From NCBI GenBank assembly GCA_937140905.1, contig CAKZQO010000264.1:1-42858 (forward strand): a stretch of 42,858 nt of DNA. Reading direction: 5' to 3'. Shown piece by piece: positions 22,200 through 42,858 of this stretch. The translations under genes and the position numbers were made by a program. The notes beneath the pieces were generated by a model, which saw only the letters and a list, made by a program, of their open reading frames with translations, made no database searches and was not told the DNA's origin. The stretch's first letter is position 1. The number at the start of each line of letters is the position of its first letter. This DNA is from an uncultured Spirochaeta sp. (GTDB taxonomy: Bacteria > Spirochaetota > Spirochaetia > DTKZ01).

Positions 22200-22230
22200 T
22201 GTTCAATTGTATGACAAGGGAGGTAGGGAC

Positions 22231-23247
22231 ATGAAAAAAGGATTGTTCTCCATCGTTCTAACTCTTTTAATTGCGGCTATGGCCATCGCCGGGGGTGCGA
22301 AAGAGGGGAGTGGGAAAGCAGAAGCACCGAAAACGTTCCAGATTTCAATATCCTATGGGGGTGCAGAAGGGGCGGAGGACGATATCTGCGCAAAAGAGTT
22401 CAAGAAACGAATCGAGGAAAAGTCGAAAGGCCGGGTAACGGTAAAGTTGTACGGAAACGAGCAACTGGGTAAGGAAGTAGATATCGTGAACCAGCTTCAG
22501 TTAGGTTCCGTGGACATGGCCATCATGGGTACTACGGTGCATGAACAAGCCGCTCCCGAATACAACATCTGGAGCGCCTACTACATTTTCAGGAGCGGAA
22601 AAGAGATCATGGCTGTGCTGGATGGCCCCATTGGGCAGAGAGTCCAAGAGGCAATGTTGAAGAACAAGGGGATCCGGATTGTTGGATATGGGCTCAGAGG
22701 ACCCCGACATCTTACTTCCAACCGTCCCATCAAAACAGCCGCGGACGTAAAGGGGTTGAAGATCCGTATACCCCTGCAACCGATCTACGTGGAGAGTTGG
22801 AAAGCATTGGGCGCATTCCCTCAAGCGATTGCTCTCGGTGGGCTGCATATGGCTCAAAAGCAAAGAATTGTGGAAGCCCAGGAGAATCCTCTATCCTTCA
22901 TCTATTCCCTTGCCTTCTATGAGGTGCAGAAGTATGTAAATCTCACCGGTCATCAGCGCGCTTTCTTTACCTATGTGCTGAGCGAAAAGACATTCCAGAG
23001 ATTCGATCCAGAGTTGCAGAAGCTTTTCCTTGAAGAAGGGAAATCGATCACCCGGTTTCACAACGATTTGCAGGATAGAAGTGAGGCCGATTATAGAAAA
23101 AAATTGGAAGATAAAGGAATGACTTTCATAGAGGTAGACCAACAATCCTTCCAAAATGCACTGAAGGATATTCCTGCCAAGTTTTCACAGAAATGGGTTC
23201 CCAATCTCTATGAGGATATCCTAAAAGAGATTTCTAAAACAAGATAA
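22231..23247 (+). CDS. TRAP transporter solute-binding protein, DctP family
   Basis: This 338-residue exported receptor captures an organic acid for the DctQ/DctM permease encoded next. A Sec signal peptide (about 1-20) ends in AIA followed by GGAKEG. DctP-family features are YGNEQLGKEVDIVNQLQLGSVDM, the arginine-bearing VKGLKIRIP segment that binds the solute carboxylate, and the VEAQENP motif. The ATG at 22231 has a GGGAGGT site and is preferred over an in-frame TTG at 22207. No lipobox cysteine is present. The gene is followed by an intra-operon terminator-like hairpin, which probably lets receptor mRNA exceed permease mRNA. Confidence 0.92.
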   Translation: MKKGLFSIVLTLLIAAMAIAGGAKEGSGKAEAPKTFQISISYGGAEGAEDDICAKEFKKRIEEKSKGRVTVKLYGNEQLGKEVDIVNQLQLGSVDMAIMGTTVHEQAAPEYNIWSAYYIFRSGKEIMAVLDGPIGQRVQEAMLKNKGIRIVGYGLRGPRHLTSNRPIKTAADVKGLKIRIPLQPIYVESWKALGAFPQAIALGGLHMAQKQRIVEAQENPLSFIYSLAFYEVQKYVNLTGHQRAFFTYVLSEKTFQRFDPELQKLFLEEGKSITRFHNDLQDRSEADYRKKLEDKGMTFIEVDQQSFQNALKDIPAKFSQKWVPNLYEDILKEISKTR

Positions 23248-23277
23248 ATTTGAGGTTGGAACTCTATAAAGGGAAAG

Positions 23278-23306
23278 AGCCGTTGCTGTTAAGCAACGGC
23301 TTCTTT
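23278..23306 (+). terminator. Intra-operon attenuator-type terminator after dctP
   Basis: AGCCGTTGCT and AGCAACGGCT form a perfect 10-bp stem with a 4-base loop, followed by TCTTTAT. It sits between the receptor and small permease genes of the same transporter. Confidence 0.7.
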
Positions 23307-23344
23307 ATATCAAATCACGTATGAGGTGGGAGGTTGATTTTTTC

Positions 23345-23800
23345 ATGGAAGAGAAATTCGTACGGTTTCTTGAAAAGGTCTTGGGTGTCTTATTGGTAGT
23401 GATGGTCGTCCTTCTATTCCTCCAAGTGGTAACTAGATATATTTTTCGGGGCCATTTACTGTGGGCAGGAGAGATGGCGGTTTGGATCTTCGTATGGATT
23501 ACCTATCTAGGCTCGGTTGTCCTATACATCAAAAAGAAACATATCGTAGTGGATATTCTAAGTACGATTCTTCCGAAACGGATCAATCGTGTGATGGAAG
23601 GAGTATCATCCCTTCTTGTCGTTGCCTTCTTGCTATTGCTTTTCTATCACTCCATCCCTGTAGTAATTTCGTATTCGAAGCAACAGGCTACCTCCCTGGC
23701 AATATCCAAGTTGTTTCTTTTTTCTTCCCTTACGGTTTCGTGCGTCCTGATGCTTTTGTATTCCTTATATAAAACCTTTCACAAGGGAAGGAGAGGATAG
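23345..23800 (+). CDS. TRAP transporter small permease, DctQ family
   Basis: This 151-residue membrane protein has four hydrophobic segments. The DctQ features are the LWAGEMAVWIFVWITYLGS helix and the charged KKKHIVVDI stretch. DctQ joins DctM in the inner membrane and takes part in docking the loaded receptor. The ATG at 23345 is preceded by GGGAGGT (spacing about 10), while the in-frame ATG at 23321 has no ribosome site. dctM follows after 1 base. Confidence 0.88.
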   Translation: MEEKFVRFLEKVLGVLLVVMVVLLFLQVVTRYIFRGHLLWAGEMAVWIFVWITYLGSVVLYIKKKHIVVDILSTILPKRINRVMEGVSSLLVVAFLLLLFYHSIPVVISYSKQQATSLAISKLFLFSSLTVSCVLMLLYSLYKTFHKGRRG

Positions 23801-23801
23801 T

Positions 23802-25082
23802 ATGTTAGCTATCGTTCTATTGGTCATGCTGATCGGTTTCTTGCTAGGGATTCCCGTTGCCTTTTCTCTGGGGATGGCCGCGCTATCCTATTTCCTACTA
23901 GATCCCGTTTTACCTTTAGTGAATATTCCCTTAAGGTTCGTTACCGGAACAGAATCGTATGAGTTGATGGCTATACCTCTCTATATGCTAGCAGGCAATA
24001 TCATGAACTCGACTGGAATCACGGATAAAATCTTTCGTTTCACCCGAACCCTAGTGGGGCATTTTACCGGAGGTACGGCCCATGTGAATATTTTAGCTAG
24101 CCTCATCTTTTCAGGGATGTCGGGATCGGCGTTGGCGGATGTAGGAGGATTGGGGAAGATAGAAATCAAGGCAATGGTAGACGAAGGGTACGATAAGGAG
24201 TTCAGCGCAGCGGTAACGGCCGCATCTGCCACCATTGGTCCGATTTTCCCTCCCAGTATTCCCATGGTGTTGATAGGGGGGGTAGCGGGAATTTCGATCG
24301 GTAAGCTCTTTGTGGGAGGTATCATTCCCGGAATACTGCTAGCGGTATACATGATGGTAGTAGTGTATTTCCTTTCTAAGAAACGGAATTACCCCCGTTC
24401 GAAGCGTTCTTCTCTCTCTGAGATCGCACACGAGTTTGTACGAGCCTTTCCCGCATTGACAACCCCAATCGTAATTCTGGGAGGAATCCTAGGAGGAATA
24501 TTCACACCTACAGAAGCAGGTGTCATTGCAGTTGTATACGCGTTATTTATTGGAATCGTGATCTATAAAGAAACGAAACTAGAAGAGCTATTCGACATGT
24601 TCATCGCAACGGCAAAAGACACGGCTAATATCATGATCATTGTCGGTGCCGCGTATGCACTGGCATGGGTATTCTCAAGGGAACAAGTAGGATTGCTTCT
24701 CACCCAAGCGATCACGAACCTTTCGACGAATCCTACTATCGTGATGATCCTGATCATTATTGGATTTCTCATTGCAGGGTGCTTCATGAATCCCTCGGCG
24801 AATATCATTATCTTTATTCCTATGCTAATGCCATTGGTGAAGAGTGTGGGGATCGATCTAGTGCTTTTCGGAGTAGTCTCTACCCTCACGCTGATGATTG
24901 GACTTATGACGCCTCCTGTTGGGTTGAGTATGTTCATTATCTGCGAGATCGCGCAAATCACGACAGCTCAGTTCATGAAAGGAATGGGGTGGTTCTTCGT
25001 TGCGCTATTGGCAGTAGTAGTCACAATGCTCATCATCCCTTCCACCGTTACATGGCTACCCAGAGTATTAATTGGTGGATAA
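23802..25082 (+). CDS. TRAP transporter large permease, DctM family
   Basis: This 426-residue protein has the usual DctM length and about 12 membrane helices. Conserved loops are ANIFSGMSGSALAD-like (LIFSGMSGSALADVGG), ATIGPIFPPSIPMVLIG and the symmetry-related GLMTPPVGLSMFI near the C-terminus. It forms the ion-coupled translocation path for the solute supplied by the receptor at 22231. A URO-D-like gene follows by 34 bases with its own strong ribosome site, so co-transcription is likely. Confidence 0.93.
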   Translation: MLAIVLLVMLIGFLLGIPVAFSLGMAALSYFLLDPVLPLVNIPLRFVTGTESYELMAIPLYMLAGNIMNSTGITDKIFRFTRTLVGHFTGGTAHVNILASLIFSGMSGSALADVGGLGKIEIKAMVDEGYDKEFSAAVTAASATIGPIFPPSIPMVLIGGVAGISIGKLFVGGIIPGILLAVYMMVVVYFLSKKRNYPRSKRSSLSEIAHEFVRAFPALTTPIVILGGILGGIFTPTEAGVIAVVYALFIGIVIYKETKLEELFDMFIATAKDTANIMIIVGAAYALAWVFSREQVGLLLTQAITNLSTNPTIVMILIIIGFLIAGCFMNPSANIIIFIPMLMPLVKSVGIDLVLFGVVSTLTLMIGLMTPPVGLSMFIICEIAQITTAQFMKGMGWFFVALLAVVVTMLIIPSTVTWLPRVLIGG

Positions 25083-25116
25083 TTGAATAACTTGAATGTT
25101 TTTTGGGAGGTGTCCT

Positions 25117-26250
25117 ATGACAGGGTTCGAGCGGGTATGGGAAGCGCTGTCACATAGAGAGCCAGATCGAGTTCCTACGGGAGAGAATCAGGTAAACGGC
25201 AAACTCACTCAAGAAATTCTAGGTCGACCTACCTACTATTCTACCGGCTGGGAGGAACTCCAAGCTCTGTGGCATGGGAAGCGGGATGAAGTCGTGAAAG
25301 ACTATGGACGAACCATAGTGGAATTGGCAAAGGTTTTGGAATGGGATTATGTTCGGGTTCCCTTCGTTCCCAAGAAGAAAGAATATAAGGTGCCCAAGAT
25401 GACGGGGCCTTACTCTTGGATCGACGAGAGTGGAAAAGAGATTCGATTCAACCCGGAGGCCGGGAATATCCTCGAGCAAGCGTCCTTTCCCCTGGATATG
25501 ACGGTAGAAGACCTTCCAGATCCGGATTCACCCTTCGAAGTGGACTCTTCCCAACTGGATGCTCTTCGGTATGTGGTAAAGGAATTAAAGGGTACGTGTT
25601 TCATCGTGGGGCGAGCACCCTTTGATGGAACTTTCCCCTGGCAACAAACAGTGGGTATGGAAGAGTTCCTAGTGCGGATGATCACAGACCCAAAGTTCGT
25701 GGAAAAAGCTATTGATCTTTATGTTACTCGTAACATCAAAATTCTAGAAGCGTTTCTCGAGGCAGGGGCAGACGCGGTGATGACCACGGATGATTACTGT
25801 GACAATCGGGGGCCCATTATGGGGGTTGAGCTATTTCGAAAGTACATTGTCCCCGGCATCCGAAGGCAGGTGGAAGCGGTGCATAGAAAAGGGGGTATTT
25901 TCATTAAACACACGGACGGATACCTGTGGGACATCTTGGACGACTTGATAGACTGTGGAATCGATGCTTGGAATGGAATCCAAACGAATATTGGAATGGA
26001 TCTGGGAAAGCTGAAACAGAGGTATGGAACTCGGCTTTGTTTCTTCGGGGGAGTGAACTGCGATACTCTGATCGAAGGGACTCCGGAGCAGGTACGGCAG
26101 GAAGTGCGGGATGCAATCCACGGCGCAGCCAGGGGGGGTGGGCTGGTCGTTACGACGAGTAATGTGCTTCAGCCTGGAGTAAAACTGGAAAATTATCTTG
26201 CGATGCGACAAGCGGTCCGTGAATACGGCATATACCCCATACGGTTGTAG
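25117..26250 (+). CDS. Uroporphyrinogen decarboxylase-like protein (URO-D superfamily)
   Basis: This 377-residue TIM-barrel protein has the URO-D/methyltransferase fold. Markers are SHREPDRVPTGE near the start, the FDGTFPWQQTVGMEEFL segment, ADAVMTTDDYCDNRGPIMG, KHTDGYLWDILDDLID, a FFGGVNCDTLIEGTPEQV strand and GLVVTTSNVLQPGV. True HemE has a different N-terminal signature. In corrinoid methyltransferases of the superfamily the His is followed by a zinc-binding Cys (HxC); here the motif reads HTD. No corrinoid protein is encoded nearby. It closes a TRAP/aldolase operon, so its substrate is probably a sugar-acid-derived compound. The reaction is unknown. The ATG at 25117 has GGGAGGT in front. 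Confidence 0.82.
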   Translation: MTGFERVWEALSHREPDRVPTGENQVNGKLTQEILGRPTYYSTGWEELQALWHGKRDEVVKDYGRTIVELAKVLEWDYVRVPFVPKKKEYKVPKMTGPYSWIDESGKEIRFNPEAGNILEQASFPLDMTVEDLPDPDSPFEVDSSQLDALRYVVKELKGTCFIVGRAPFDGTFPWQQTVGMEEFLVRMITDPKFVEKAIDLYVTRNIKILEAFLEAGADAVMTTDDYCDNRGPIMGVELFRKYIVPGIRRQVEAVHRKGGIFIKHTDGYLWDILDDLIDCGIDAWNGIQTNIGMDLGKLKQRYGTRLCFFGGVNCDTLIEGTPEQVRQEVRDAIHGAARGGGLVVTTSNVLQPGVKLENYLAMRQAVREYGIYPIRL

Positions 26251-30399: not shown

Positions 30400-31557
30400 A
30401 TGGTGTATCGCGGTGTTTCTGTAGCGACAGGAAAAACCCTTGAAGTTCGAATAGAGCAGGGCCAAATCCATGAGGTTCGAGAAATCAAACCATCGAAGGA
30501 TTTACCTTATCTTTCGCCAGGGTTTTTTGACCTCCAGATCAACGGCCACCGAGGCATCGACTACAGTGGGGAAGATCTAACACCGGAAAAGGTACTGGAA
30601 GTCTGCCGTTCAGTAGCTAAAACTGGAACCACCCGCCATTTTGCTACCATTATTACTCGACCTAAGGAGCGTATCCTAGCCAATCTTCGAATCCTCACGG
30701 AAGCGAGAAACCGTTACTCCTTTGTGCGGGCCAGTATCCTGGGAGTGCATCTGGAAGGGCCTTTCATATCCGAAGAGGATGGCCCCCGGGGTGCCCATAA
30801 CCGGGAGTTTGTCCGGGATCCTGATATCGATGAGTTCGAGGAGTGGCAGGAAGCGGCCGAGGGAACCGTACGGCTCGTAACCCTAGCCCCCGAGCGGAAA
30901 GGGGCCATCCCTTTCATTCAGCATCTCCGAAAGAAGGGAGTAGTAGCGGCTATCGGGCATACGGGAGCCTCTGCGGAGGTGATCCAGGAAGCTATTCGGT
31001 CAGGGGCTTCCCTTTCGACTCATTTAGGGAATGGAAGCCACGCCCAGATCCCCCGTCTTCGGAACTATATCTGGGAACAACTGGCGGCGGATGAACTGTA
31101 CGCCAGCTTCATCTGCGACGGTTTTCACCTACCCCCTTCGGTGATGAAAGTCTTTTCCCGGGCAAAAGGGATAGAGCGGATCATCCTGGTGAGTGACGTG
31201 GCCTTCCTTGCGGGATTGAAGCCGGGCTTCTACAAATGGGGGCATCTCGATGTGGAGCTCCATCCGGATGGTCGGATCACCCAGGTGGGCACACCCTTCT
31301 TCGCGGGCGCGGGCCATCTGCTGGATCGGGGGATTGCCCAGTTCGTGAGGCACACGGACATGAGTCTATCGATGGCTATTCGAGCCTGTACGGTAAACCC
31401 CGCGAGACTTACAGCTATACCGGAATCTAACTTCAAATTGGAGGGTGGAACCCCCGCTCATCTAGTCCTATTCGACCATCGCGAGGGAGACGATACCCTT
31501 CGGATTCTCAAAGTGGTCGCGGAAGGGGAAGAGCTGGATGGAACTGAAAAGCCTTAA
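30400..31557 (+). CDS. NagA-like amidohydrolase (N-acetyl sugar-6-phosphate deacetylase family)
   Basis: This 385-residue protein belongs to the amidohydrolase superfamily and resembles N-acetylglucosamine-6-phosphate deacetylase. Expected metal and catalytic positions are kept: HLEGPFISEEDGPRGAH, AIGHTGAS, THLGNG and VSDVAFLAG (catalytic Asp), then FAGAGHLLDRG and the C-terminal VNPA and LEGGTPAHLVLFD. It departs from typical NagA after the metal-binding His: the usual THL.NAM reads THLGNGSHAQ. It may act on a different N-acetylated or lactonised sugar derivative. It is promoter-proximal in an operon with an FCD regulator, a TRAP transporter and a SIS-domain protein, and overlaps the regulator gene by 20 bases. 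Confidence 0.83.
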   Translation: MVYRGVSVATGKTLEVRIEQGQIHEVREIKPSKDLPYLSPGFFDLQINGHRGIDYSGEDLTPEKVLEVCRSVAKTGTTRHFATIITRPKERILANLRILTEARNRYSFVRASILGVHLEGPFISEEDGPRGAHNREFVRDPDIDEFEEWQEAAEGTVRLVTLAPERKGAIPFIQHLRKKGVVAAIGHTGASAEVIQEAIRSGASLSTHLGNGSHAQIPRLRNYIWEQLAADELYASFICDGFHLPPSVMKVFSRAKGIERIILVSDVAFLAGLKPGFYKWGHLDVELHPDGRITQVGTPFFAGAGHLLDRGIAQFVRHTDMSLSMAIRACTVNPARLTAIPESNFKLEGGTPAHLVLFDHREGDDTLRILKVVAEGEELDGTEKP

Positions 31558-32272
31558 GGATCAAAACCTCTATCAAGCGGCACAGGAACGAATCAAAGAG
31601 TATATCGTAGCCTCGGGTATGAAGGTGGGTGACCCGCTCCCAACCGAGATGGAGTTGGCAGAGAAACTCAACATCAGCCGAACCATCGTTCGGGAAGCGC
31701 TGAAGGGGCTTGAGGCTCTACAGATCATTGGGGTGAAACATGGAGTGGGACGGTTCCTAAAAAGTTTCAACTTGGAAGCGATCTTACAGAATCTTTCCTA
31801 CAGTATTGAAATGAACATGAAAGATTTTCGGGAAATCTTGGAAGTCCGAATCTGTCTGGAAGAAGCCTTCTTGGAGAGAGAGACCCCCCGATTTTCCATA
31901 TCGGATGTGGAAGAACTGGAAGGGATCCTCCATCAGTTGGAGGAAGCCGCTCAGACAGACAACAACGAGACCGAGTTGATAGAACTCCACACAGCCTTTC
32001 ATCTTCGATTGTACAAGAATGCCAATAATTCCTTACTCCTCAACCTGATCAGGATATTTTCTACCATTCAGAAAAACCTTACGTACCTCAAACGGTACCG
32101 AACATTGGATAAAAAGGCCTTTGTGGAGGATCATCGAAAGATTTTGGAGGCCCTTCGAAAAAGGGATGGAAAGCTGGCAAAGGAACGACTGTTAGAACAT
32201 TTCGCCGAGCCTCTCCATTGGGCTCGGCAGGAATACGGCGTCGTTGGCGTCGAACGCGAAAAGGTTCGTTAG
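31538..32272 (+). CDS. GntR-family transcriptional regulator, FCD (FadR) subfamily
   Basis: This 244-residue regulator has an N-terminal winged helix (ERIKEYIVASGMKVGDPLPT, then SRTIVREALKGLEALQIIGV) and an all-helical FCD ligand-binding domain with LEVRICLEEAFLE, ELHTAFHLRLYKNANN and EDHRKILEALRKRD. The metal-site Asp and His residues are visible in the last two segments. FCD regulators usually sense sugar acids or other carboxylates and repress the operon they lie in. It is embedded between the NagA-like gene and the TRAP receptor, and the inverted repeat at 30291-30317 is its probable operator. The ATG at 31538 has a GGAAGAG site. Confidence 0.92.
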   Translation: MELKSLKDQNLYQAAQERIKEYIVASGMKVGDPLPTEMELAEKLNISRTIVREALKGLEALQIIGVKHGVGRFLKSFNLEAILQNLSYSIEMNMKDFREILEVRICLEEAFLERETPRFSISDVEELEGILHQLEEAAQTDNNETELIELHTAFHLRLYKNANNSLLLNLIRIFSTIQKNLTYLKRYRTLDKKAFVEDHRKILEALRKRDGKLAKERLLEHFAEPLHWARQEYGVVGVEREKVR

Positions 32273-32288
32273 AAAACAGGAGGATAGC

Positions 32289-33278
32289 ATGAAACGCGCA
32301 GGGGTGATGGTACTGATCAGTATCGTGGTGGTATTCGGGCTTTTTGCTCGAGGTGCCCAGGAAAAGATGGTGCTCCGTCTGGGGCATATCCGGGACACGA
32401 ATCATCCTACCCATTTGGCGGCCATGAAGTTTAAGGAGTTGTTGGAAGGGGAATCCAAGGGAAGATTCGAGGTAAAGATCTATCCCAACAGTCAGTTGGG
32501 AGGTCCGAAAGAGATGTTTGCCCAGATGCAAACAGGGGATCTGGAAATGGTGTATGGGGGAATCAACACCTTCGCCTGGATCAAAGGGGGAGAAGCATTT
32601 GAAATTACTGCCATTCCCTTCCTATTCAATTCGTACGAACACATGCGTAAGTTCTTACTTTCCGATTATTGGAAACCGGTAATCCAGAAAGCGGAAGCTG
32701 CCACAGGCATCAAAATCGTGAACATCAATGGAGATACCGCGCCGCGGGGACTGACCACAAAGGACAGGGAAGTAAAAACAGCGGATGACTTCAAGGGTCT
32801 CAAGATCCGTACCGCTGCGAGTCCTACCGTGCTGAAGGCGATGCAAACCCTCGGCGCTCTGCCCCAGCAGATTCCTTTCAGCGAACTGTACATGGCGTTG
32901 AAAACGGGAGTGGTGGACGCGCAGGAGAACGGGGTCATCGTGGTGGCAACCGCGAGTCTGTATGAAGTACAGGGGTACTACATTAAAACCGATTACATCC
33001 GGGACATTGAAACTTTCTATATGCCGTTGAGTCTCTGGAACAAACTCTCGAAGGCTGATCAAGAAATGATCTTCAAGGCAACGGAAGTAGCTGGGAATTA
33101 CGAAACAGAGCTGACCCAGAAGCAACTGAAGGACGCGTACGACCTGGTAAGCAAAAAGATGAAGGTGATCGTTCCTGATCTAGCCTCTATCCAGAAGAAA
33201 TTGGAAGGAGCCTTCGATGAATACGAAGGGACCAAGTGGCCAGTAGGGGCACTGAAGAAAGTTCGGGAGATGCAGTAG
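32289..33278 (+). CDS. TRAP transporter solute-binding protein, DctP family
   Basis: This 329-residue exported receptor has a signal peptide of about 20 residues followed by RGAQEK. DctP features are KIYPNSQLGGPKEMFAQMQTGDLEM, the solute-carboxylate Arg in FKGLKIRTAASP, the ALPQQIPFSELYMALKTGVVDAQENG segment and a Trp-rich C-terminal half. The ATG at 32289 has ACAGGAGGA in front and is much better than an in-frame start at 32244. It is the binding partner of the permease genes at 33347 and 34636. A terminator-like hairpin follows directly, as after the other dctP gene in this window. Confidence 0.92.
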   Translation: MKRAGVMVLISIVVVFGLFARGAQEKMVLRLGHIRDTNHPTHLAAMKFKELLEGESKGRFEVKIYPNSQLGGPKEMFAQMQTGDLEMVYGGINTFAWIKGGEAFEITAIPFLFNSYEHMRKFLLSDYWKPVIQKAEAATGIKIVNINGDTAPRGLTTKDREVKTADDFKGLKIRTAASPTVLKAMQTLGALPQQIPFSELYMALKTGVVDAQENGVIVVATASLYEVQGYYIKTDYIRDIETFYMPLSLWNKLSKADQEMIFKATEVAGNYETELTQKQLKDAYDLVSKKMKVIVPDLASIQKKLEGAFDEYEGTKWPVGALKKVREMQ

Positions 33279-33286
33279 GGTTTTTG

Positions 33287-33315
33287 GGGGGCTAAGATTT
33301 ATCTGCCCCCTTTTT
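33287..33315 (+). terminator. Intra-operon attenuator-type terminator after dctP
   Basis: GGGGGC (33287-33292) and GCCCCC (33305-33310) pair around a 12-base loop and run into five T. It lies between the receptor and large permease genes. Confidence 0.75.
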
Positions 33316-33346
33316 GATCCTATATAGGAAAAACAAGGAATTCGTC

Positions 33347-34627
33347 ATGATCCTACTGTTATTTTTTCTTCTTTTTCTCTTCATAGGAATTGGGTTTAGT
33401 ATCTGGACCGCGATGGGGTTGAGTGGACTGATCTATATCCTGATCCAGGGTCAGGTTTCCCTCAAAGTGCTGGTCACCAATATGGTTACGGGGGTGGATT
33501 CGGCCACCCTCGTGGCTATTCCCTTCTTTATTTTAGCCGGGGAGTTGATGAACAAATCAGGAATCACGAAAAGAATCGCTGACTTTGCAGATTTCTTTGT
33601 GGGACGGTTCAAGGGAGGACTGGCCTACGTGGCGATCGTGGTAAACGTGATCATGGCAGGCATATCGGGTTCGGCCGTGGCCGACGCGAGCGCCGTGTCT
33701 TCGATCTTGCTGCCCGCCATGAAGGAAAAGGGGTATGACCTGCCTTTCGCGGCCGCGATAAACGCGTCCGCTGCTGTGATCGGTCCTATTTTTCCCCCCA
33801 GCATCCCTATGATCTTCATTGGGGTGATCAGTGGGATATCGATCGGTAAATTGTTCCTTGGTGGGGTGGTCCCCGGCTTGATGATGGGGGTATTCTTAGC
33901 CATCACCGTGTTCATTGTCAGTCGAAGGAAGAACTATCCCCTTTCCACGCGAACTTTTTCTTTTTCCGAGTTTCTGGGTTTACTTCGGGATACGATCCTC
34001 GCTATCATCTCGCCCCTCATCATCATCGCCGGGATCGTGTTCGGGATTGTGACTTTGGTAGAGGTTGCGGTTCTCGCGATCGTGTATATTCTCTTTATTT
34101 CCCTCTATTTGTATCGAAGCATTTCTTACAAGGAAATCCTCGAAGTCCTGGCGAAAACCGCTGTGTTTTCCACTTCCATCATGATTATCTTCGCCGTAGT
34201 GGGAGTGTTCCAGTACATTGTGGCATTGGAACAGTGGGGGGAGAAACTGAAACTCCTCATCGCTAGCTGGCATATGAGTAAATGGACCTTCTTACTCTTG
34301 GTAAACCTATTCTTTATCTTCATGGGGTGTATCCTGGACGCTATTCCCGTGATGCTGATCTTCTTTCCCGTGCTGCTTCCTACCGCCATTGGATTGGGGA
34401 TCGATCCTGCCCACTTTGGGGTAATCACCGTGTTGAACCTGATGATCGGACTCCTCACCCCACCCATTGGAGCGCTCCTATTCCTGGAAACGAAGATCGC
34501 GAACTTACCTTTCGCAGTACTAGTAAAAGCGGTAACCCCGTACACGCTAACCCTGTTCGTGGTGCTGTTCCTCTGCACCTATATCCCAGAGTTGGTCCTG
34601 TGGATTCCCAACCTGATCTTGAAATGA
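33347..34627 (+). CDS. TRAP transporter large permease, DctM family
   Basis: This 426-residue membrane protein has the same length as the other DctM in the window. Conserved loops are VIMAGISGSAVADASA, AVIGPIFPPSIPMIFIG, NLFFIFMGCILDAIP and GLLTPPIGALLFL. It forms the translocation pathway of the second DctP system. The ATG at 33347 with an AAGGAA site is preferred to an earlier in-frame TTG at 33314, which lies within the terminator. Here the large subunit precedes the small one, the reverse of the 23345-25082 order. Confidence 0.93.
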   Translation: MILLLFFLLFLFIGIGFSIWTAMGLSGLIYILIQGQVSLKVLVTNMVTGVDSATLVAIPFFILAGELMNKSGITKRIADFADFFVGRFKGGLAYVAIVVNVIMAGISGSAVADASAVSSILLPAMKEKGYDLPFAAAINASAAVIGPIFPPSIPMIFIGVISGISIGKLFLGGVVPGLMMGVFLAITVFIVSRRKNYPLSTRTFSFSEFLGLLRDTILAIISPLIIIAGIVFGIVTLVEVAVLAIVYILFISLYLYRSISYKEILEVLAKTAVFSTSIMIIFAVVGVFQYIVALEQWGEKLKLLIASWHMSKWTFLLLVNLFFIFMGCILDAIPVMLIFFPVLLPTAIGLGIDPAHFGVITVLNLMIGLLTPPIGALLFLETKIANLPFAVLVKAVTPYTLTLFVVLFLCTYIPELVLWIPNLILK

Positions 34628-34635
34628 GGTGAAGG

Positions 34636-35124
34636 ATGAGGTCACGAATCGATACGTATCTGATAGATGGGACTCAATGGTTTTCCGGGGTGTTGTTCCT
34701 AGTCCTTCTGGTCCTTAATGTGCTTCGAATTATGCTACGGTATTTCTTCGGAATTTCCTGGCTCTGGGTTCCAGACCTTTCCCGATTGCTTTTCATCTGG
34801 ATTGTGTTCCTCGGAAGTGCCTGTCTGTATGGAAAAGGGGAACACTTATTGATGGACTATTTCATTTCCAAACTAGAACCTAAGGTTGCCCGAAAGCTAC
34901 GGCGATTCGTTCTATTAGGAGAATGCGTTCTTTTCGTTGTTCTTATAGGGGTGGGGATCCAGATGACGATCGTCCGGATGGGGATTCCCTTCGATACCTG
35001 GGACCTGCCCACAGGATACGCGTATCTTTCGGTGCCGGTTTCAGGTGCGATTATGTTGTTCTTTTGCGTGGCGAACCTGGTAAAGGCACGCCTTATCGAA
35101 ATAGAACTAGATAAAACAATCTAA
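34636..35124 (+). CDS. TRAP transporter small permease, DctQ family
   Basis: This 162-residue protein has four membrane helices. The DctQ features are SWLWVPDLSRLLFIWIVFLGSACLYGKGEHLLMDYF and a C-terminal YAYLSVPVSGAIMLFF helix. It is the small membrane partner of the DctM encoded 8 bases upstream. The ATG at 34636 is preceded by AGGTGAAGG, a good ribosome site. Confidence 0.88.
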   Translation: MRSRIDTYLIDGTQWFSGVLFLVLLVLNVLRIMLRYFFGISWLWVPDLSRLLFIWIVFLGSACLYGKGEHLLMDYFISKLEPKVARKLRRFVLLGECVLFVVLIGVGIQMTIVRMGIPFDTWDLPTGYAYLSVPVSGAIMLFFCVANLVKARLIEIELDKTI

Positions 35125-35138
35125 AAGGAGAGAAGCTC

Positions 35139-35897
35139 ATGAATAAAGAACTGCAACAGTACAAGGATGCCATCTTCACTGGGATCGAACAGATCTCAGG
35201 CGAAGAGCCCGTGATCAAAGAAGCGGCCAAGGTTATGGCCAAGTCTATCGCGGAAGGGAACCTGATCCATGTGATCGGACCCGGCGGGCATTCCAATATG
35301 GCGGTTGAAGAAGTGCTCTGGCGGTCGGGAGGGCTCGTGCCCATTAACGCGATCCTCGACGCGGGAACGAACCTGATCCATGGAGCAAAGCGATCCAACT
35401 ACATCGAGCGGACTCCCGGATACGCGCCAAAGGTTCTGGACGCCTATGGAGTAGGGAAGAAACCAGGGGAAGTGATCGTGATCGTGAACGCGTACGGGAT
35501 CAACGCGATGTGTATTGACACGGCCCTGGAAGCGCGAAAGCGGAAGATGGTCTCTATCGGTATAACCTCCCGGGATTTTGCCGACCGGCTCCCCAAGGAC
35601 CATCCTTCCCGGCACCCTTCCGGAAAGAACCTGTACCAAGAGGTGGACTACTTTATAAATTGCCACCTTCCGTATGGGGATGCGGTAGTGGAGGTGGAAG
35701 GGTGTCCACAGAAAGTAGGTCCTACAGCTACTATCTGCAACGTGTTTGCCATCAATTTTTTAATGGTAGAGACGGTGAAAGCCCTCGTTTCCTTGGGAGT
35801 GAAGCCACCCGTTTGGATGAGCGCCAACCTTCCTGGCGGGGATGAAGCGAACCGAGCCTACGAGGAAAAGTACAGGCCGTTGATCAAGCACCTATGA
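35139..35897 (+). CDS. SIS-domain sugar isomerase-like protein
   Basis: This 252-residue protein has the sugar isomerase (SIS) fold that binds phosphosugars. Visible are the IHVIGPGGHSNMAVEEVLWRSGG strand-loop-helix at the phosphate site, VIVIVNAYGINAMCIDTALEARKRKMVSIGITS for the second strand pair, and a C-terminal helix after GPTATICNVFAINFLMVETV. It has no helix-turn-helix, so it is not an RpiR regulator. In this operon it may isomerise or de-aminate a phosphosugar released by the NagA-like enzyme, a division of labour like NagA/NagB. The true reaction is unknown. It follows dctQ by 14 bases with an AAAGGAGAG site. Confidence 0.83.
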   Translation: MNKELQQYKDAIFTGIEQISGEEPVIKEAAKVMAKSIAEGNLIHVIGPGGHSNMAVEEVLWRSGGLVPINAILDAGTNLIHGAKRSNYIERTPGYAPKVLDAYGVGKKPGEVIVIVNAYGINAMCIDTALEARKRKMVSIGITSRDFADRLPKDHPSRHPSGKNLYQEVDYFINCHLPYGDAVVEVEGCPQKVGPTATICNVFAINFLMVETVKALVSLGVKPPVWMSANLPGGDEANRAYEEKYRPLIKHL

Positions 35898-35986: not shown

Positions 35987-37309
35987 ATGAAAAGAACTCT
36001 GAAATGGACGGCGGTCATCACGATAGTCGTCCTACTGGTACCTTCTCTTGTCATGGCAGGAGGAGGAAAGGAAACGAAGACGGCGGGTCCGGTAAAGCTC
36101 AGCCTATGGGGCGGATTTCCTGAAATGGAAGCCTTCTATAAATATGCAGCGGAGGAATACAGGAAAAGTCATCCCAATGTTGAGTTCACCATCCTAACGC
36201 ATCCCCTTCGAGAATTTGAACAGAAGCTATCTGCCACGGTCCCTTCTAACACCGCAGCGGATATTATCGAGATCTCCATGTATGCAAATCAGAAGTTCAT
36301 CGAGGCAGGGTTGATCCCCGAACTGCCGGCTAAGGTGAAGGATTACTTCCTAGCCCCCAACCGATTCAGTGATTTTGTCAAGAAGAACAATACCTATAAG
36401 GATAAATTGTACGGATTGCCTATCTTCCAGGGAAGAACCGCCCTCTTTTGGAACAAGAAGATGTTCCAGGAAGCAGGCTTTTCTGGTCCTCCAAAGACCC
36501 TTACTGAAATGGCCCAATTCGCGAAGAAACTGGCAAAGTATGATGCGAATGGGAACCTTATTCGCAGTGGACACAGCCTCCGACTTTCTGGTCAAGGATC
36601 GGGTGTTGCCGAAAAGTTCTGGTTTGTTCTGTACCCAATGGGGGGATCAATTTTAGAAGAAAGCAAGGAAAAAGGGAAATATCACGCGGGATACAACAAC
36701 GATGCGGGTCGAAGAGCTCTGAAGTACTATATCGATGCCCTTTACGTGGATAAATGGGACAGTCATGCCATAAAACATGATGCGGACGCCTTTGAACTAG
36801 AACTCACCGCAATGTTTTTCCGGGAGTCTTGGGTGATCGGTGACATTGCAAAAAAAGCTCCAAATCTGAGTTACGATACAGCCCCTGTACCGGCAGACGT
36901 GCGCTGGGGTCGAATTACCAATCCCGTGAATCTATACGTAACCCGTAGCTGTAAAAATCCCGATGCTGCATGGGATTTTGCCATGTTCCTCAACGAGGAA
37001 AAGAATCTAGTGTGGCTATTGGACAATGTAGGCTGGCTACCGGTTCGACAAGATATCAACCTGGATTCCGTACTGGCGAAAAAGCCGCAGTTCAAAGCCT
37101 TTGTCATGAGCGATCCCAAGTACGAGGAATTCGGGTATACGGTGATTGCAGTGTTCGATGAAATCATGACAAAACTGGCTGAACGATTAGTAGCGGCCTA
37201 TCTGGACAAGTCTTTGGCGAACAATCCTTCTGGAATTGCCAAGGTAATCCAGGATGCCGCCAACGAGACGAACGAGATTCTAAAGAGAGCTAAACTGTAC
37301 GGAGAATAG
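35987..37309 (+). CDS. Carbohydrate ABC transporter substrate-binding protein (family 1)
   Basis: This 440-residue protein has a Sec signal peptide (about 1-24, ending VMA) followed by GGGKET. It belongs to the extracellular solute-binding protein family 1 (MalE/UgpB-like): LSLWGGFPEMEAFYKYA, YGLPIFQGRTALFWNKKMFQEAG and MFFRESWVIGD are typical positions, and the C-terminal lobe has VTRSCKNPDAAWDFAMFLN. It binds a sugar outside the membrane for the two permeases that follow. The start is set by AAGGAGG seven bases upstream. No ATPase gene follows, so a shared MsmK-type ATPase elsewhere is likely. Confidence 0.92.
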   Translation: MKRTLKWTAVITIVVLLVPSLVMAGGGKETKTAGPVKLSLWGGFPEMEAFYKYAAEEYRKSHPNVEFTILTHPLREFEQKLSATVPSNTAADIIEISMYANQKFIEAGLIPELPAKVKDYFLAPNRFSDFVKKNNTYKDKLYGLPIFQGRTALFWNKKMFQEAGFSGPPKTLTEMAQFAKKLAKYDANGNLIRSGHSLRLSGQGSGVAEKFWFVLYPMGGSILEESKEKGKYHAGYNNDAGRRALKYYIDALYVDKWDSHAIKHDADAFELELTAMFFRESWVIGDIAKKAPNLSYDTAPVPADVRWGRITNPVNLYVTRSCKNPDAAWDFAMFLNEEKNLVWLLDNVGWLPVRQDINLDSVLAKKPQFKAFVMSDPKYEEFGYTVIAVFDEIMTKLAERLVAAYLDKSLANNPSGIAKVIQDAANETNEILKRAKLYGE

Positions 37310-37316
37310 AGCTTCT

Positions 37317-38198
37317 ATGAACCGAATGGAACTCCAGAAACGGATCTTTGCCTACTCGGCAGTAATCCCGGTAGTACTGATCTTTGCTTTTCTACGCGTG
37401 GTTCCAATCTTCCAAAACTTCCTCTACAGTTTCTTCAACTCTACTGTGGTGGATCCTATGCAGGAGTTCATCGGTATTGAAAACTACAAAGAACTGTTCA
37501 AAGATAATCTTTTTCTTCTCTCTCTGAAAAATACTACTCTCTTTGCCCTATTCGTTACCGTGTTCAGCGTGGGGCTGGCATTGCTAGTGGCGGTGCTGCT
37601 GGCAACTAAAACTGCCTTAGGGGGTCTCTTTGAGACCCTCTATTTTCTTCCGGTGATTACACCGATGGTGCCAGTGGCTGTTGTGTGGAAGTGGATCTAT
37701 GATCCTACGTATGGGTTGTTGAATTATTGCTTATCTCTCTTTGGGATCAAGCCGCTGGGGTGGCTTGTATATCCAGATCTTGCCATTTGGGCTATCATCA
37801 TCATGAGTGTGTGGAAAGTAATCGGATACAACATGATCATTTTTCTAGTTGGGATCCGTGATATTCCCGATTCTTATATCGAGGCAGCCACAATCGACGG
37901 GGGAAACAAGTTCCAAGTATTCCGCTTCATCATTCTACCTCTCTTGAGGCCAATTCTCCTGTTCGTTACCATCATTTCTACCATAAACGCTTACAATGTG
38001 TTCACCCAAGTGTTCATCATGACTTCAGGTCCCCAGGGAGCGCCAGGAAATGCGGTTCGAACCCTCGTGTTCGACATCTATGAAAATGCCTTTCGGTACT
38101 TCAAAACAGGGTATGCTGCCTCGGAAGCGGTGGTCCTTTTCCTGATTGTCCTCCTGCTTACATTAGTCCAACTCCGTACAGGAGGGAAGGAAAGATGA
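37317..38198 (+). CDS. Sugar ABC transporter permease (MalF/UgpA type)
   Basis: This 293-residue membrane protein has six hydrophobic segments and the EAA loop that contacts the ATPase, seen as YIEAATIDGGNKFQVFRFIILP. The N-terminal region RVVPIFQNFLYSFFNS is typical of the MalF/UgpA group. It forms half of the sugar channel. It starts 7 bases after the binding-protein gene, and its stop overlaps the next permease start by 4 bases (ATGA). Confidence 0.92.
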   Translation: MNRMELQKRIFAYSAVIPVVLIFAFLRVVPIFQNFLYSFFNSTVVDPMQEFIGIENYKELFKDNLFLLSLKNTTLFALFVTVFSVGLALLVAVLLATKTALGGLFETLYFLPVITPMVPVAVVWKWIYDPTYGLLNYCLSLFGIKPLGWLVYPDLAIWAIIIMSVWKVIGYNMIIFLVGIRDIPDSYIEAATIDGGNKFQVFRFIILPLLRPILLFVTIISTINAYNVFTQVFIMTSGPQGAPGNAVRTLVFDIYENAFRYFKTGYAASEAVVLFLIVLLLTLVQLRTGGKER

Positions 38199-39022
38199 TA
38201 CGAAAGACTTTTTTCCTTGCCTTCAAATACCTGATCCTCTCCTTAGGGGCTTCAATCATGGTTCTTCCCTTCCTATGGATGGCTTCTACGGCAGTTAAGC
38301 CACCCACAGAGGTGTTGAGTTGGCCACCGGAGTTCCTGCCCCGACATATAACCTTGGAAAATTTTCATACCGTGTTTGCCACTGCTCCCTTCCTGCGATT
38401 TTTTTTCAATAGTGTGGCAATGGCCACCCTTTGTACCCTCAGTGTCCTTCTCACATCAGCCATCGCTGGGTACGTGTTTGCAAAGTTTCGATTTCCTGGA
38501 AGGAACGCTCTATTCATCCTCGTCCTAGCTACTGCAATGGTTCCGTTCGAGACCTATATGATACCGCTCTACATTTCCATGGTAAAACTATCGCTGGTAA
38601 ATACGTTTATTGGTCTTATAGCTCCGTACATTATCATGAGCTACGGGATTTTTTTCATGCGCCAGAACGTCCTGGCATCGATCCCCGATGAGATCATCGA
38701 CGCTTCCCGAATCGATGGAGCATCGGAATGGTCGATCTTTTTCAGGGTAATCTTTCCCATGCTGAAAGGAAGCGTAGGCGCTCTTTCGATCTTTGCCTTT
38801 ATGCAGACATGGGCGGCTTTCATCTGGCCTCTCATAATTACAAGTTCGCGGGAGCTCTGGACAATGGAGCTCGGTTTGGGAATGTTCCAGTATCGGTTTA
38901 CGGTTGATCTAGGCCCTATCAATGCCGGTTCCATGCTTTCCATTGTCCCTATACTAGGGGTCTTCCTGCTGATGAGGAGGCATATTATTAAGGGAATTAC
39001 TTTGACCGGATTGAAAGGGTAG
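38195..39022 (+). CDS. Sugar ABC transporter permease (MalG/UgpE type)
   Basis: This 275-residue protein has six membrane helices, the N-terminal MVLPFLWMASTAVKPPTEV motif and the EAA loop IIDASRIDGASEWSIFFRVIFP. It pairs with the MalF-type permease immediately upstream. Start is fixed by the ATGA overlap. The amidohydrolase-like pair follows 7 bases later, which places the whole set in one operon. Confidence 0.92.
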   Translation: MIRKTFFLAFKYLILSLGASIMVLPFLWMASTAVKPPTEVLSWPPEFLPRHITLENFHTVFATAPFLRFFFNSVAMATLCTLSVLLTSAIAGYVFAKFRFPGRNALFILVLATAMVPFETYMIPLYISMVKLSLVNTFIGLIAPYIIMSYGIFFMRQNVLASIPDEIIDASRIDGASEWSIFFRVIFPMLKGSVGALSIFAFMQTWAAFIWPLIITSSRELWTMELGLGMFQYRFTVDLGPINAGSMLSIVPILGVFLLMRRHIIKGITLTGLKG

Positions 39023-39029
39023 GCATTCC

Positions 39030-39764
39030 ATGTACCTGGTTGATTGTGATGTGGTGGCTGGATTTTGGCCAAAGAGCCGCATCCCCATGTCTCCAAAAGA
39101 AATAGGTGCACTTCTTTCAGGGAATGGTATAAAAGAAGCGTTCGTAGTTTCTGCCCGGGGGATCCTTTTTGATTACCAAAGAGGTAATGAGGAAACCTTG
39201 AAATGGGCAGAAGCGTCCAAGAACCTGGAATCCTTCGGAGTACGGTTTCATCCCGTTGGAACGATCGATCTACGGCGGTTTATCGGATACCGGGAGGAGA
39301 TCCATCAATATCACAGGGCGGGAGTTAGGTTGTGGAGGTTGTTCCCTGAACATCAAGGGTGGGACTTCGAACATCCAGGTTTTCGGAGAGTCGCCGATGC
39401 CATTGCAGAAGTGGGGGGCACTCTCTTTGTAAAAGGGAAAGCCGGTAGGATTCTTGCGGGACTAAAAGGGTGCCCGGTAAAGCTTTTAATTGGAACTCAC
39501 TTCTACGATGTCTCCGAGGTATTTGCCCTCTGGGAGGAAGGGCATAAGTTTACTCTTTCAATGGCCCAGTTCCATGGAGCGGGGACCCTTAGGTTTGTCG
39601 TAAACCAAGGGGGAAGAGGTAGGGTCGTATTCGGATCAGGGGCTCCCTTCTTCTCACCTTCAGCTGTAAAAGGAATATTAGAACAGTCAGACCTATCGGA
39701 GGAAGAAAAGCAGATCATTGCAAGCGAGACTCTCTGGAGTCTATTGGAGAAAGACGCATGGTGA
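39030..39764 (+). CDS. Amidohydrolase-like protein lacking metal ligands (probable pseudoenzyme)
   Basis: This 244-residue protein aligns along its length with its neighbour at 39758, including the pattern of strand ends, but the active-site residues are gone. The N-terminal DSHTH becomes VDCDV. The KVHP position reads RLWRLFP, LIHTF reads LFVKGK, GHMGG reads GTHFYD and FGTDATLFEP becomes FGSGAPFFSP. It is therefore unlikely to bind the usual zinc or manganese pair. A shared start/stop overlap with the intact paralogue suggests the two act together, perhaps as a heteromer in which this chain is structural or regulatory. It is not a broken gene: the frame is open and codon use looks normal. 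Confidence 0.72.
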   Translation: MYLVDCDVVAGFWPKSRIPMSPKEIGALLSGNGIKEAFVVSARGILFDYQRGNEETLKWAEASKNLESFGVRFHPVGTIDLRRFIGYREEIHQYHRAGVRLWRLFPEHQGWDFEHPGFRRVADAIAEVGGTLFVKGKAGRILAGLKGCPVKLLIGTHFYDVSEVFALWEEGHKFTLSMAQFHGAGTLRFVVNQGGRGRVVFGSGAPFFSPSAVKGILEQSDLSEEEKQIIASETLWSLLEKDAW

Positions 39765-40510
39765 TCGATTCGCACACCCATTACGGGCCCTGGTATTTCC
39801 CATTGGACCATCTGGATTGGGAGGGGTTCAAAAAGAGTCTTAATCGAGCAGGTATCGAGGGCGCTATCATTTCATCCAGTTCTGCTATCGTGTATGATTT
39901 TCGCGAAGGGAATGCCGAACTATCCCAGGTGCTGAAAGGAGAAAACAATATCTGGGGATATGTAACAGTAAACTTCAACTATCTAGAGGAGTCGCTGGAA
40001 GAGGTTGAAAGGTATTTACGGGATCCGCTCACCACGCGGTTTGTGGGAATCAAAGTTCATCCTTTATTGGCAGGGAAAAGTTTCGACTGCAAAGAAGCCG
40101 ATAGGATCGTGGAGCGTGCTATCCGGTACCAAACGCCTTTCTTGATCCATACCTTCAATTCTCCCATCGAATCTCCGAGGAATGTATTAAGAGTATCCAA
40201 AGAGTATCCGCAGGCCTTATTCATTCTGGGGCATATGGGAGGGTATGAGTGGGAAGTGGGGATCGAAGTAGCCAAGGAGCGACCCAACGTATACCTAGAA
40301 GTATGTAGTACCTGTACGGAACCCAGGAAATTGCGCCAAGCCGTTGATGCCGTTGGTCCACAGAGGGTGTTATTCGGAACGGATGCTACCCTCTTCGAAC
40401 CAGCTTATATGCGGATGGCTCTCGAAGACGCAGGGCTCACACAGGAAGAGATGAAATGGGTCTTGGGAGAATCTGCTAGAAGGCTCTTTCGACTCGATCG
40501 TTGGGATTGA
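39758..40510 (+). CDS. Amidohydrolase family protein (amidohydrolase_2 type), metal site intact
   Basis: This 250-residue TIM-barrel hydrolase or decarboxylase carries the expected ligands in DSHTHYG (4-10), GIKVHPLL, FLIHTFNS, ILGHMGGYEWE and VLFGTDATLFEP. Members of this family hydrolyse lactones or amides, or decarboxylate acids such as ACMSD substrates. The ATG at 39758 overlaps the stop of the preceding pseudo-paralogue by 7 bases. With the sugar ABC transporter, URO-D-like protein and epimerase-like gene around it, lactone hydrolysis in sugar-acid degradation is a reasonable guess. Confidence 0.85.
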   Translation: MVIDSHTHYGPWYFPLDHLDWEGFKKSLNRAGIEGAIISSSSAIVYDFREGNAELSQVLKGENNIWGYVTVNFNYLEESLEEVERYLRDPLTTRFVGIKVHPLLAGKSFDCKEADRIVERAIRYQTPFLIHTFNSPIESPRNVLRVSKEYPQALFILGHMGGYEWEVGIEVAKERPNVYLEVCSTCTEPRKLRQAVDAVGPQRVLFGTDATLFEPAYMRMALEDAGLTQEEMKWVLGESARRLFRLDRWD

Positions 40511-40521: not shown

Positions 40522-41703
40522 ATGGAACGACCTGTCTATTCGGAACGTCTTACCATAGATACCTATGGTTTCCTTCCCGATTCGAGGGAATTCTGGAAGG
40601 AGTTCTGGCGGATCAATACTATATCCCTGTATGGGGGCGAACCGACAGGGCCGATAGATGCCCTTCCTGTTCGTCCGTCCTTCGATCGAAACAAGCCTCG
40701 CATTCCAGTACTGATCGAGTTGGGAGAAGACTGGATAATCCAAAAGATGGGAGTCTCTTACAAAAGGTACATTCAGGATGCAGATTTTCAACAAGAAATA
40801 AGAAGAGCCTGCGCAGTTCAGTTGAAGCAGGACCTCGAGTTCTACTTGAAACCCAAAGTAGATACCGCATCCTTATTACATGGTTCGATCTATGGGAACC
40901 CGATTTTGTACCCAGAAGATTCAACCCCTACCCTTGAGCCTATCCTTCATACTGCAGAGGACGTGAAAGCTCTTATCCACCGGATGGAAGAAACGGATCT
41001 TTCCTGTGCAGGACTTGTTGAGGAGTTTGTTCGTAGGTATAAGGAACTGGGCAAGCCGTATCGCTGGAGAATCCTCCACGATCCCACAGCAGTTCATGGA
41101 CCTGGAACGATTCTAGGCTTCCTCTTTGGGATCAGTGAGTTTCTTCTATTCCTCTACGATGAACCCGAGTTATCCGCAGCTTTAATAGATTTAGTAGCTC
41201 GTCTCACTGTTCGCTATTCAAGGATGATTCGTAACCTAACGCAAGCTCCGTTTACAGGAGTAGGAGTGTTTGATGATGTGGCAGGCCTTCTTTCTCCAGA
41301 ATTGTTCGAACGGTTTCTCCTACCCGCATACCATTACATCTACTCGGAGTTAGCCCCCGATCAGCAGGACGATCGATTCCTTCATAACGATGCAGCGGTG
41401 GGACACCTTTTGCCCTACTTCCGGGAGTTGGGAGTGAACGGGATCAATCCCGATCCGGACACTCCTCCATCCTATATTCGGAAGGAGTTGCCGCGGGCAA
41501 TCCTGTACGGTGCTGTTTCTCCCCTCTTGTTGAGGAACGGCTCTCCTGCCGAAGTGTTCCATGCAGCTAAACAGTGTATCGAGGAAGTAGGGATGGATGG
41601 AGGATTGGTGCTCACTACTGCGGGTAGTATCAATATGGGAACCCCTTATGAGAATCTTCTTGCCCTCTGCTATTCTTCCTATAGGTTTGGGAATTTCACC
41701 TGA
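40522..41703 (+). CDS. Uroporphyrinogen decarboxylase-like protein (second copy, divergent)
   Basis: This 393-residue protein has the URO-D fold and is only distantly similar to the one at 25117. Seen are SLYGGEPTGPIDALPV near the N-terminus, WRILHDPTAVHGPGTILGF in the middle, GVGVFDDVAGLLSPELFERF, FLHNDAAVGHLLPYFRELG, YGAVSPLLLRNGSPAEV and GGLVLTTAGSINMGTPYENLLAL. The His-containing motif reads HND, in line with HTD in the first copy rather than the HxC of methyltransferases. Start at 40522 is set by GAGGGAG. Function is unknown. Position between an amidohydrolase pair and an epimerase-like gene in a sugar operon suggests a carbohydrate-derived substrate. Confidence 0.8.
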   Translation: MERPVYSERLTIDTYGFLPDSREFWKEFWRINTISLYGGEPTGPIDALPVRPSFDRNKPRIPVLIELGEDWIIQKMGVSYKRYIQDADFQQEIRRACAVQLKQDLEFYLKPKVDTASLLHGSIYGNPILYPEDSTPTLEPILHTAEDVKALIHRMEETDLSCAGLVEEFVRRYKELGKPYRWRILHDPTAVHGPGTILGFLFGISEFLLFLYDEPELSAALIDLVARLTVRYSRMIRNLTQAPFTGVGVFDDVAGLLSPELFERFLLPAYHYIYSELAPDQQDDRFLHNDAAVGHLLPYFRELGVNGINPDPDTPPSYIRKELPRAILYGAVSPLLLRNGSPAEVFHAAKQCIEEVGMDGGLVLTTAGSINMGTPYENLLALCYSSYRFGNFT

Positions 41704-41729: not shown

Positions 41730-42858
41730 ATGCAATTCCGATATCCCCTTCTCCCATCCGTTCCAAAACAAGAAGATTTATTACATCTTACACCCTATGT
41801 GCACACCCTTATTCAAAAGGGCTTTACGGTTATCTTGGAGCGAACACAGGGGGATCCAACTTACCCCTGGTTGAACATGAAATTTAACCCGATCGATGGG
41901 AAAGAGTTTGCTGCAGATGACCCTGTTCGGGGAAAGGGAAGGGTGTATTCTTGGATTCAAGGCAGGGGACTAGAGGCTCTGGCCGAATACTACTGGTATG
42001 GTTTGCACTACGACCTCATCAAGAAAGACTCTCCTGAAGAGGCTCAACTCCTGAAAGTTATAAGGATGGTTTCTACTTCATTATGGAAATCCTGGAAGGA
42101 ACAGGGCGGCCATCTATACTTCACTATTCCATGGGTGGATAGAGAGGGGGACAGGGCAGGAACCCTTGAACAAAGACTGGTTCCTAAGGCAGAGGTCGAA
42201 TTGGGCAGTGTGCTTAATGAAGGAAGGGAACTTTATACCTATAGCGATGTTTTCTGTTCCAGGGGACTATATCTAGCAGCCATCGTCCTAGGAAACAAAA
42301 GGATGGTAGAAAAAGCTCGAAACTATTGCATCGATACTCTTGCGGCTGTATGGGAGGGTCGGATATACAACGACCAAATTTCCTTCGACCCGAGGAATCC
42401 GATTACTCCTATACCCGGCAGGGTTTCCCACGCTCCCTACATGTTGATGATTCCTACTGTATCCCATCTGTACCAGTTTGCTGAGAAAGAATCGAATCGA
42501 GATGATTGGTTCGAGGAAGGACTCCGGTTAATCCAGTATGTTCTGGAACATCACGCGAATTTACCAGAAAAAGATTCTACTCGCTTTTCTGATTTAGAAC
42601 CTTATGCTTTTCTAGAGTATGTGGATACTGAGGGAAACCCTTATATAACTCACCTCAATGGTGAGAATTACATACTTTGTGATCCCGGACACGCCTTGGA
42701 GTTTGTAGGAATCGCAATAACATTTTTACAAAATAAGCTGAAACGATCATCCATTCATAGTGATAGTTACACCAGATTAAAGGATACTTCAGCCATGAGC
42801 GATGCCCTTTTTCGAGTGTTCGAACAGAACTTTCGAATTGGGTTCCAGGAGGCCCTTG
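41730..42858 (+). CDS. N-acylglucosamine 2-epimerase-like protein (partial, 3' end off window)
   Basis: An open frame starts at ATG 41730 and runs without stop to the window end (376 codons). The text LCDPGHALEFVG, far into the protein, matches the PGHxxEW/F motif of the N-acylglucosamine 2-epimerase / cellobiose 2-epimerase alpha-alpha barrel family. An early GRGLEALAEYYWYG is also typical of the first barrel helices. Such enzymes epimerise or isomerise amino sugars or aldoses. Many His, Trp and Glu residues line the helices as expected. It follows the URO-D-like gene by 26 bases with a weak TAGAGGT ribosome site and is probably part of the same sugar operon. Confidence 0.72.
   Translation, partial: MQFRYPLLPSVPKQEDLLHLTPYVHTLIQKGFTVILERTQGDPTYPWLNMKFNPIDGKEFAADDPVRGKGRVYSWIQGRGLEALAEYYWYGLHYDLIKKDSPEEAQLLKVIRMVSTSLWKSWKEQGGHLYFTIPWVDREGDRAGTLEQRLVPKAEVELGSVLNEGRELYTYSDVFCSRGLYLAAIVLGNKRMVEKARNYCIDTLAAVWEGRIYNDQISFDPRNPITPIPGRVSHAPYMLMIPTVSHLYQFAEKESNRDDWFEEGLRLIQYVLEHHANLPEKDSTRFSDLEPYAFLEYVDTEGNPYITHLNGENYILCDPGHALEFVGIAITFLQNKLKRSSIHSDSYTRLKDTSAMSDALFRVFEQNFRIGFQEAL

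Follow-up and report, generated by a model that had tools for sequence, protein, structure and literature searches.

Why an amidohydrolase-like gene without metal ligands should be kept directly beside an intact paralogue is the question raised by two overlapping genes, here termed A and B, on a contig of 42,858 nucleotides from an uncultured Spirochaeta sp.; this whole stretch of DNA is referred to below as the window. A (39030..39764, + strand) encodes a putative pseudo-amidohydrolase subunit of 244 aa, an Amidohydro_2-like TIM barrel without the metal-ligand set, and B (39758..40510, + strand) encodes a 250-aa protein in which the HxH, K, H, H, and D residues are intact, suggesting that it is the catalytic Amidohydro_2 subunit. 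Both reading frames are open over these coordinates. They overlap by 7 bp (ATGGTGA, 39758..39764, + strand), so that translational coupling is likely, and a GGAG motif resembling a ribosome-binding site for B is located inside A (39746..39749, + strand), 8 nt 5′ of B's ATG.

The two proteins are homologous (21% identity over 229 residues, BLASTP E=3e-9) and have a GN motif in common. B has a complete ligand set (H6, H8, K99, H101, H131, H159, and D209), of which H6, H8, K99, H131, H159, and D209 are invariant among the type-1 relatives, and scores 84.8 bits on Pfam Amidohydro_2 (PF04909; gathering cut-off 26.4 bits, E=1.1e-23). At the positions of B's ligands, A carries D7, V9, R103, and F105, a non-His residue at the beta-5 position (K in alignments), T or G at beta-6, and G204 (FGSGA) at the position of the beta-8 Asp, leaving 0/5 metal ligands in the multiple alignment. 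The pairwise alignment of A and B sets A's H157 (GTHFY) against B's H159; larger alignments offset it by about two residues, so that it falls close to the beta-6 ligand column, at most two residues away, but not on it, and one such stray His is not a metal site. On these residues, B is the predicted catalytic member of the pair and A is not. The original prediction had described chains of matching length and layout, a 7-bp gene overlap, and an intact amidohydrolase preceded by a copy with every metal position replaced; this description was borne out.

No Pfam or NCBIfam model matched A, even at E≤1, and A is thus invisible to family annotation; among its relatives, 10 of 15 match PF04909 at E≤0.01. 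For B, no NCBIfam equivalog was found, and no named activity is claimed, as the only match, to FuconLaconase, is far below the cut-off (11.5 bits vs 400). Apart from A, the whole 3.57-Mb genome contains two Amidohydro_2 genes, namely B and one on another contig. With only three such genes genome-wide, A included, chance adjacency of A and B was ruled out.

The distribution of the pair was examined from both sides. A search with an A profile against 395 genomes of the window's Spirochaetota class (E≤1e-5) returned relatives in 31 of them, the weak matches including active enzymes. Close relatives occur in five named genomes, four from Spirochaetota and one from Chloroflexota, and the gene order substrate-binding protein-permease-permease-A-B is the same in the close relatives from both. 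The A and B genes overlap in all six type-1 loci; in the five loci related to the window's, they share 4 or 11 bp. The window's genus is represented by three further genomes, and A is absent from all of them, so that the locus has a patchy distribution and horizontal movement is probable. When every amidohydrolase domain in the fetched loci was classed as dead or active by its ligand residues, 59 distinct adjacent pairs were obtained from Spirochaetota and Chloroflexota, comprising 56 dead-then-active, one active-then-dead, and two active-active arrangements; for 19 of the 56 dead-then-active pairs, a single uninterrupted reading frame encodes both domains. Searches anchored on B gave the complementary picture. 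In the same 395 genomes, close B genes (defined as those scoring over 400 bits, the next match having 120 bits) numbered five, and A was located directly upstream in 5/5. Of the 30 best B matches in Chloroflexota, 26 have a dead neighbour, which is upstream in 21 cases (11 of them in one frame with B) and downstream in five; the four without one are weak matches (110-119 bits) from other subgroups. B without A is uncommon.

The pair extends beyond these lineages. Plasmid records contributed further cases: the actinomycete Nonomuraea gerenzanensis has two pairs, the clostridium Subdoligranulum variabile (Bacillota) has one, and a dead-active fusion is located beside an active-dead fusion in the haloarchaeon Halomontanus rarus. 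The two haloarchaeal genes adjoin one another (L131:5986-7611 and 7685-9373), and both are annotated only as "amidohydrolase family protein." A scan of viral contigs returned no relatives, and a plasmid search with the A protein of locus L029 as query returned no match. Some Chloroflexota carry several copies per genome. The reversed order, with the active domain first and the dead domain second, was observed in Chloroflexota (L148, L150, L154, L156, and L162) and in the Spirochaetota class (L020); the dead genes of these loci carry an SFRxxGG or NWRMRCH pattern, and those tested (L020, L148, and L154) occupy a separate branch beside the main A group. A dead subgroup marked by NSRCDRG or NLRCDRG (L055-L060 and L091-L094) has no adjacent active partner in the DNA examined, and for its six NSRCDRG loci from Chloroflexota (L055-L060), where no active B was seen, some contigs are short. 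About 2-3 kb from the dead domain, L091 and L093 carry another degenerate copy (HYRYPYG). In the fused proteins of L015 and L016, from one genus, the live C-terminal half itself has Asp in place of the beta-5 His.

Selection and phylogeny both indicate that A has long been maintained alongside B. Nei-Gojobori dN/dS ratios (omega) for close pairs with dS<1 were 0.06-0.26 for A and 0.03-0.11 for B, figures that for A come from relatives, dS being saturated in type-1 pairs, including the window's own lineage. Two more divergent pairs gave omega values of 0.27 and 0.33 for A and 0.24 and 0.30 for B, and A evolves somewhat faster than B. In a tree of 92 rows, one branch (97/98 support) separates the active domains from the A domains of every pair but two, and in a tree of 102 rows from which the ligand columns had been removed, 42 of 44 dead domains still grouped together (SH-aLRT 80), with the reversed-order dead domains as sister group to the other dead ones; in these trees the A/B-side rooting is not fixed and several deep branches are long. 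That the A domains group merely through their lost ligands is ruled out by the tree rebuilt without those columns. The two exceptions to the grouping of dead domains, L024 and L032, represent a separate ligand loss: they fall within a lineage of active-active pairs (L021 and L044), in which the first copy independently lost its ligands at these two loci. Distances among A domains track those among B domains (Mantel r=0.66, against a null maximum of 0.23 in 5000 shuffles), and A and B have the same nearest neighbour in 25/36 cases. A and B are co-inherited. The original prediction had regarded A as a maintained pseudoenzyme beside its active paralogue, suggestive of an obligate heteromer or an allosteric subunit, for which conserved tandem pairs and purifying selection on the first copy should be sought, and had named frequent absence of that copy from relatives carrying the second as the contrary outcome. 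Pairing, purifying selection in close relatives, and co-inheritance uphold A as a maintained partner, to which the natural fusions add a physical link, and A was rarely found missing beside B; an obligate or allosteric role for A may be considered.

Structure predictions point in the same direction. The AlphaFold2 model of window A is confident (pLDDT 94.6, pTM 0.92), and the PDB structures ranked highest for it by Foldseek are decarboxylases and hydrolases of the Amidohydro_2 type (E about 1e-10 to 1e-8). The two halves of a natural fusion, L088, have 28% and 35% identity with window A and window B, respectively, and the model of this fusion reached pLDDT 92.9 and pTM 0.91 over 510 residues covering both barrels; this pTM value by itself suggests that the two predicted barrels are held in a fixed relative orientation. 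Foldseek with the fused model returned single-barrel matches only, which is uninformative on the dimer. Among solved structures, the A profile matches PDB 3irs / 3k4w (BB4693) best (E=4.4e-17). With the fused profile, this entry aligns to the A half and not to the B half, and the printed alignment gives it FGTAYP at beta-8 instead of the Asp. This solved protein is uncharacterized; in its profile match and lost beta-8 Asp it resembles a dead amidohydrolase of the A kind.

Taken with the natural fusions, the confident two-barrel model of a fused relative makes it very probable that a complex would form. It is proposed, with a probability of about 0.83, that A and B are unlike subunits of one heteromeric amidohydrolase, encoded downstream of a sugar transporter, in which A is the non-metal subunit. 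B, with its complete metal-ligand set, would perform the chemistry. A would descend from an ancient duplication, with the metal site lost once in the main lineage, and would since have been kept as B's partner, as pairing, selection, and mirror trees suggest. Made from overlapping genes, or as one fused chain in many relatives, the two would assemble into a fixed heterodimer.

Both A and B fold like enzymes of the PF04909 family, among them CAC3332 (3cjp), gamma-resorcylate decarboxylase (2dvt/3s4t), 5-carboxyvanillate decarboxylase, and LigI-type lactonases. B matches this family with all ligands present, whereas A is without the metal site; moreover, the matched PDB entries are each described as a single molecule, in contrast to the unlike pair or fusion encoded here. 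A precedent for a residue reaching the active site from the other subunit is ACMSD, a relative that forms a homodimer (PDB 2hbv and 4ifk), has the Amidohydro_2 fold in common with A and B, and requires Arg239 from the neighbouring chain in its active site (PMC11650718). ACMSD consists of two identical active chains, whereas the neighbour here would be the dead paralogue. By this analogy, A would take the place of one half of an ACMSD-like homodimer and, in that place, would shape or gate B's active site; most simply, A probably replaces the second B copy of an ACMSD-type dimer. Dead amidohydrolase subunits and dead-live paralogue dimers are already known, from Pseudomonas aspartate transcarbamoylase (ATCase) and trypanosome AdoMetDC, respectively. 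The pseudo-dihydroorotase (pDHO) subunit of Pseudomonas class A2 ATCase has lost its zinc ligands and is needed for its partner's activity (PMC7053772). Like A, it is an amidohydrolase-fold subunit without metal ligands, but it belongs to another amidohydrolase subfamily, and its partner is the unrelated enzyme ATCase rather than an active paralogue. The trypanosome AdoMetDC-prozyme is a dead paralogue that forms a heterodimer with the live enzyme, whose activity depends on it (PMC6221367). This pairing of dead and live paralogues is comparable to A and B, although it concerns a eukaryote and another enzyme family. In the open-licence literature, beyond which most subscription papers lie, no description of paired PF04909 proteins was found, which is weak evidence of novelty.

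The residues that replace the metal site in A are themselves patterned. Of 72 distinct dead domains, 64 have Arg in place of the active-site Lys and 45 have Asn in place of the first His (Asp in window A), while Lys and His are both kept in all 88 active domains. Within the type-1 and fused clade, window A's D5, G11, G52, N53, R103, S203, and P206 are invariant or nearly so; of these, D5, R103, S203, and P206 are located at the mouth of the barrel. At the rest of the ligand positions, A subfamilies differ from one another (N, S, D, E, Q, or H; A, S, W, or V; D, P, S, or W). Judged from these residues, A's pocket, with Arg for Lys, may bind a carboxylate or sugar ligand. A broader proposal is offered only tentatively and could well prove wrong: that this is a widespread heteromeric family in which the remodelled pocket of the dead barrel accommodates a ligand or a portion of the substrate and, across the interface, controls or completes the live site.

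A conserved pocket of this kind, with its recurrent Arg, is also what would be expected of a binding site in a free-standing pseudoenzyme, such as a ligand sensor or operon regulator, that forms no stable complex with B and is linked to it by co-regulation only; that one A subgroup is not beside an active B accords with this as well. Such an arrangement is nevertheless unlikely, being at odds with the natural fusions, some of which are in separate parts of the tree, with the mirror trees, with the near-fixed order of overlapping genes, and with the pTM obtained for the fused relative. Somewhat less likely again is a catalytic A that works by a metal-independent route through Arg and other pocket residues, the pair then being sequential enzymes or, when fused, a two-step bifunctional enzyme. 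Strong purifying selection and the retention of D5, R103, S203, and P206 would fit such a role, but the remaining ligand positions vary widely among subfamilies, unlike those of a shared catalytic site, and A, instead of serving other pathways, almost always comes paired with a B.

That A is a decaying duplicate heading for loss is highly improbable, even though it evolves somewhat faster than B and often falls under family cut-offs. Frames are intact throughout, window A included, omega is well under 1, a single ancient origin is combined with co-inheritance, and A is almost never missing beside close relatives of B. For the family, a chance ORF or decayed duplicate was ruled out by the intact frames, omega, and co-inheritance. 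Heteromeric A and B thus remain the preferred reading: since distantly related bacteria and an archaeon co-inherit dead-live twins, often as fusions, the dead copy A is most likely a working partner subunit, one identified by no annotation seen.

Dead-live enzyme pairs have usually been described lineage by lineage, and AdoMetDC and its prozyme are encoded by separate genes and are not known as a natural fusion. Here, an old dead barrel is carried beside a live partner in Spirochaetota and Chloroflexota, as well as in an actinomycete, a clostridium, and a haloarchaeon, and fusions occur on more than one branch. The family libraries that were searched either fail to recognise the dead half or do not indicate its presence, so that a fused protein is labelled plainly as an amidohydrolase. 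If the heteromeric reading is true, the live gene expressed alone cannot serve for assaying these enzymes, and the many natural pairs and fusions would form a ready series for probing the role of the pseudo-subunit.

The genomic context of the pair bears on its substrate. The same operon contains a sugar ABC transporter substrate-binding protein (35987..37309, + strand), a neighbour kept in L036-L040, and two permeases, the first (37317..38198, + strand) conserved with the pair and the second (38195..39022, + strand) directly upstream of A, as also in related loci. Directly downstream of B is a URO-D / MtaA-like protein (40522..41703, + strand; PF01208), with a MtaA/CmuA subfamily match below the cut-off; a URO-D-like gene is also found 3′ of the pair in L037. 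The sugar transporter and URO-D-like neighbour named in the original prediction are real, and the epimerase-like one stood in part: this ORF (41730..42857, + strand), cut by the window end, has no Pfam match of its own, and its assignment as GlcNAc 2-epimerase-like comes from a full-length relative (L038:7471-10170) that matches PF07221 (GlcNAc_2-epim). Upstream of the transporter are a SIS-domain sugar isomerase (35139..35897, + strand; PF13580, NF002805) and a NagA-like deacetylase (30400..31554, + strand; PF01979), which matches TIGR00221 nagA with E=2.9e-60 and 204 bits, under the cut-off of 225.65. In the loci of relatives, a PIG-L deacetylase and a glucosamine-6-phosphate isomerase family protein are nearby. 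Together, the NagA-like deacetylase, SIS isomerase, GlcNAc 2-epimerase-like protein, and these genes of relatives indicate amino sugars, and the neighbours suggest that the substrate is probably an amino-sugar or sugar-acid derivative imported by the adjoining ABC transporter. The window also contains two apparently complete TRAP transporter sets, at 22207-25079 (judged by eye) and at 32244-35124, the latter immediately preceding the sugar isomerase and ABC transporter. The start of an ORF at 25096-26247 resembles, by eye, URO-D-type proteins, suggesting a possible second member in the window.
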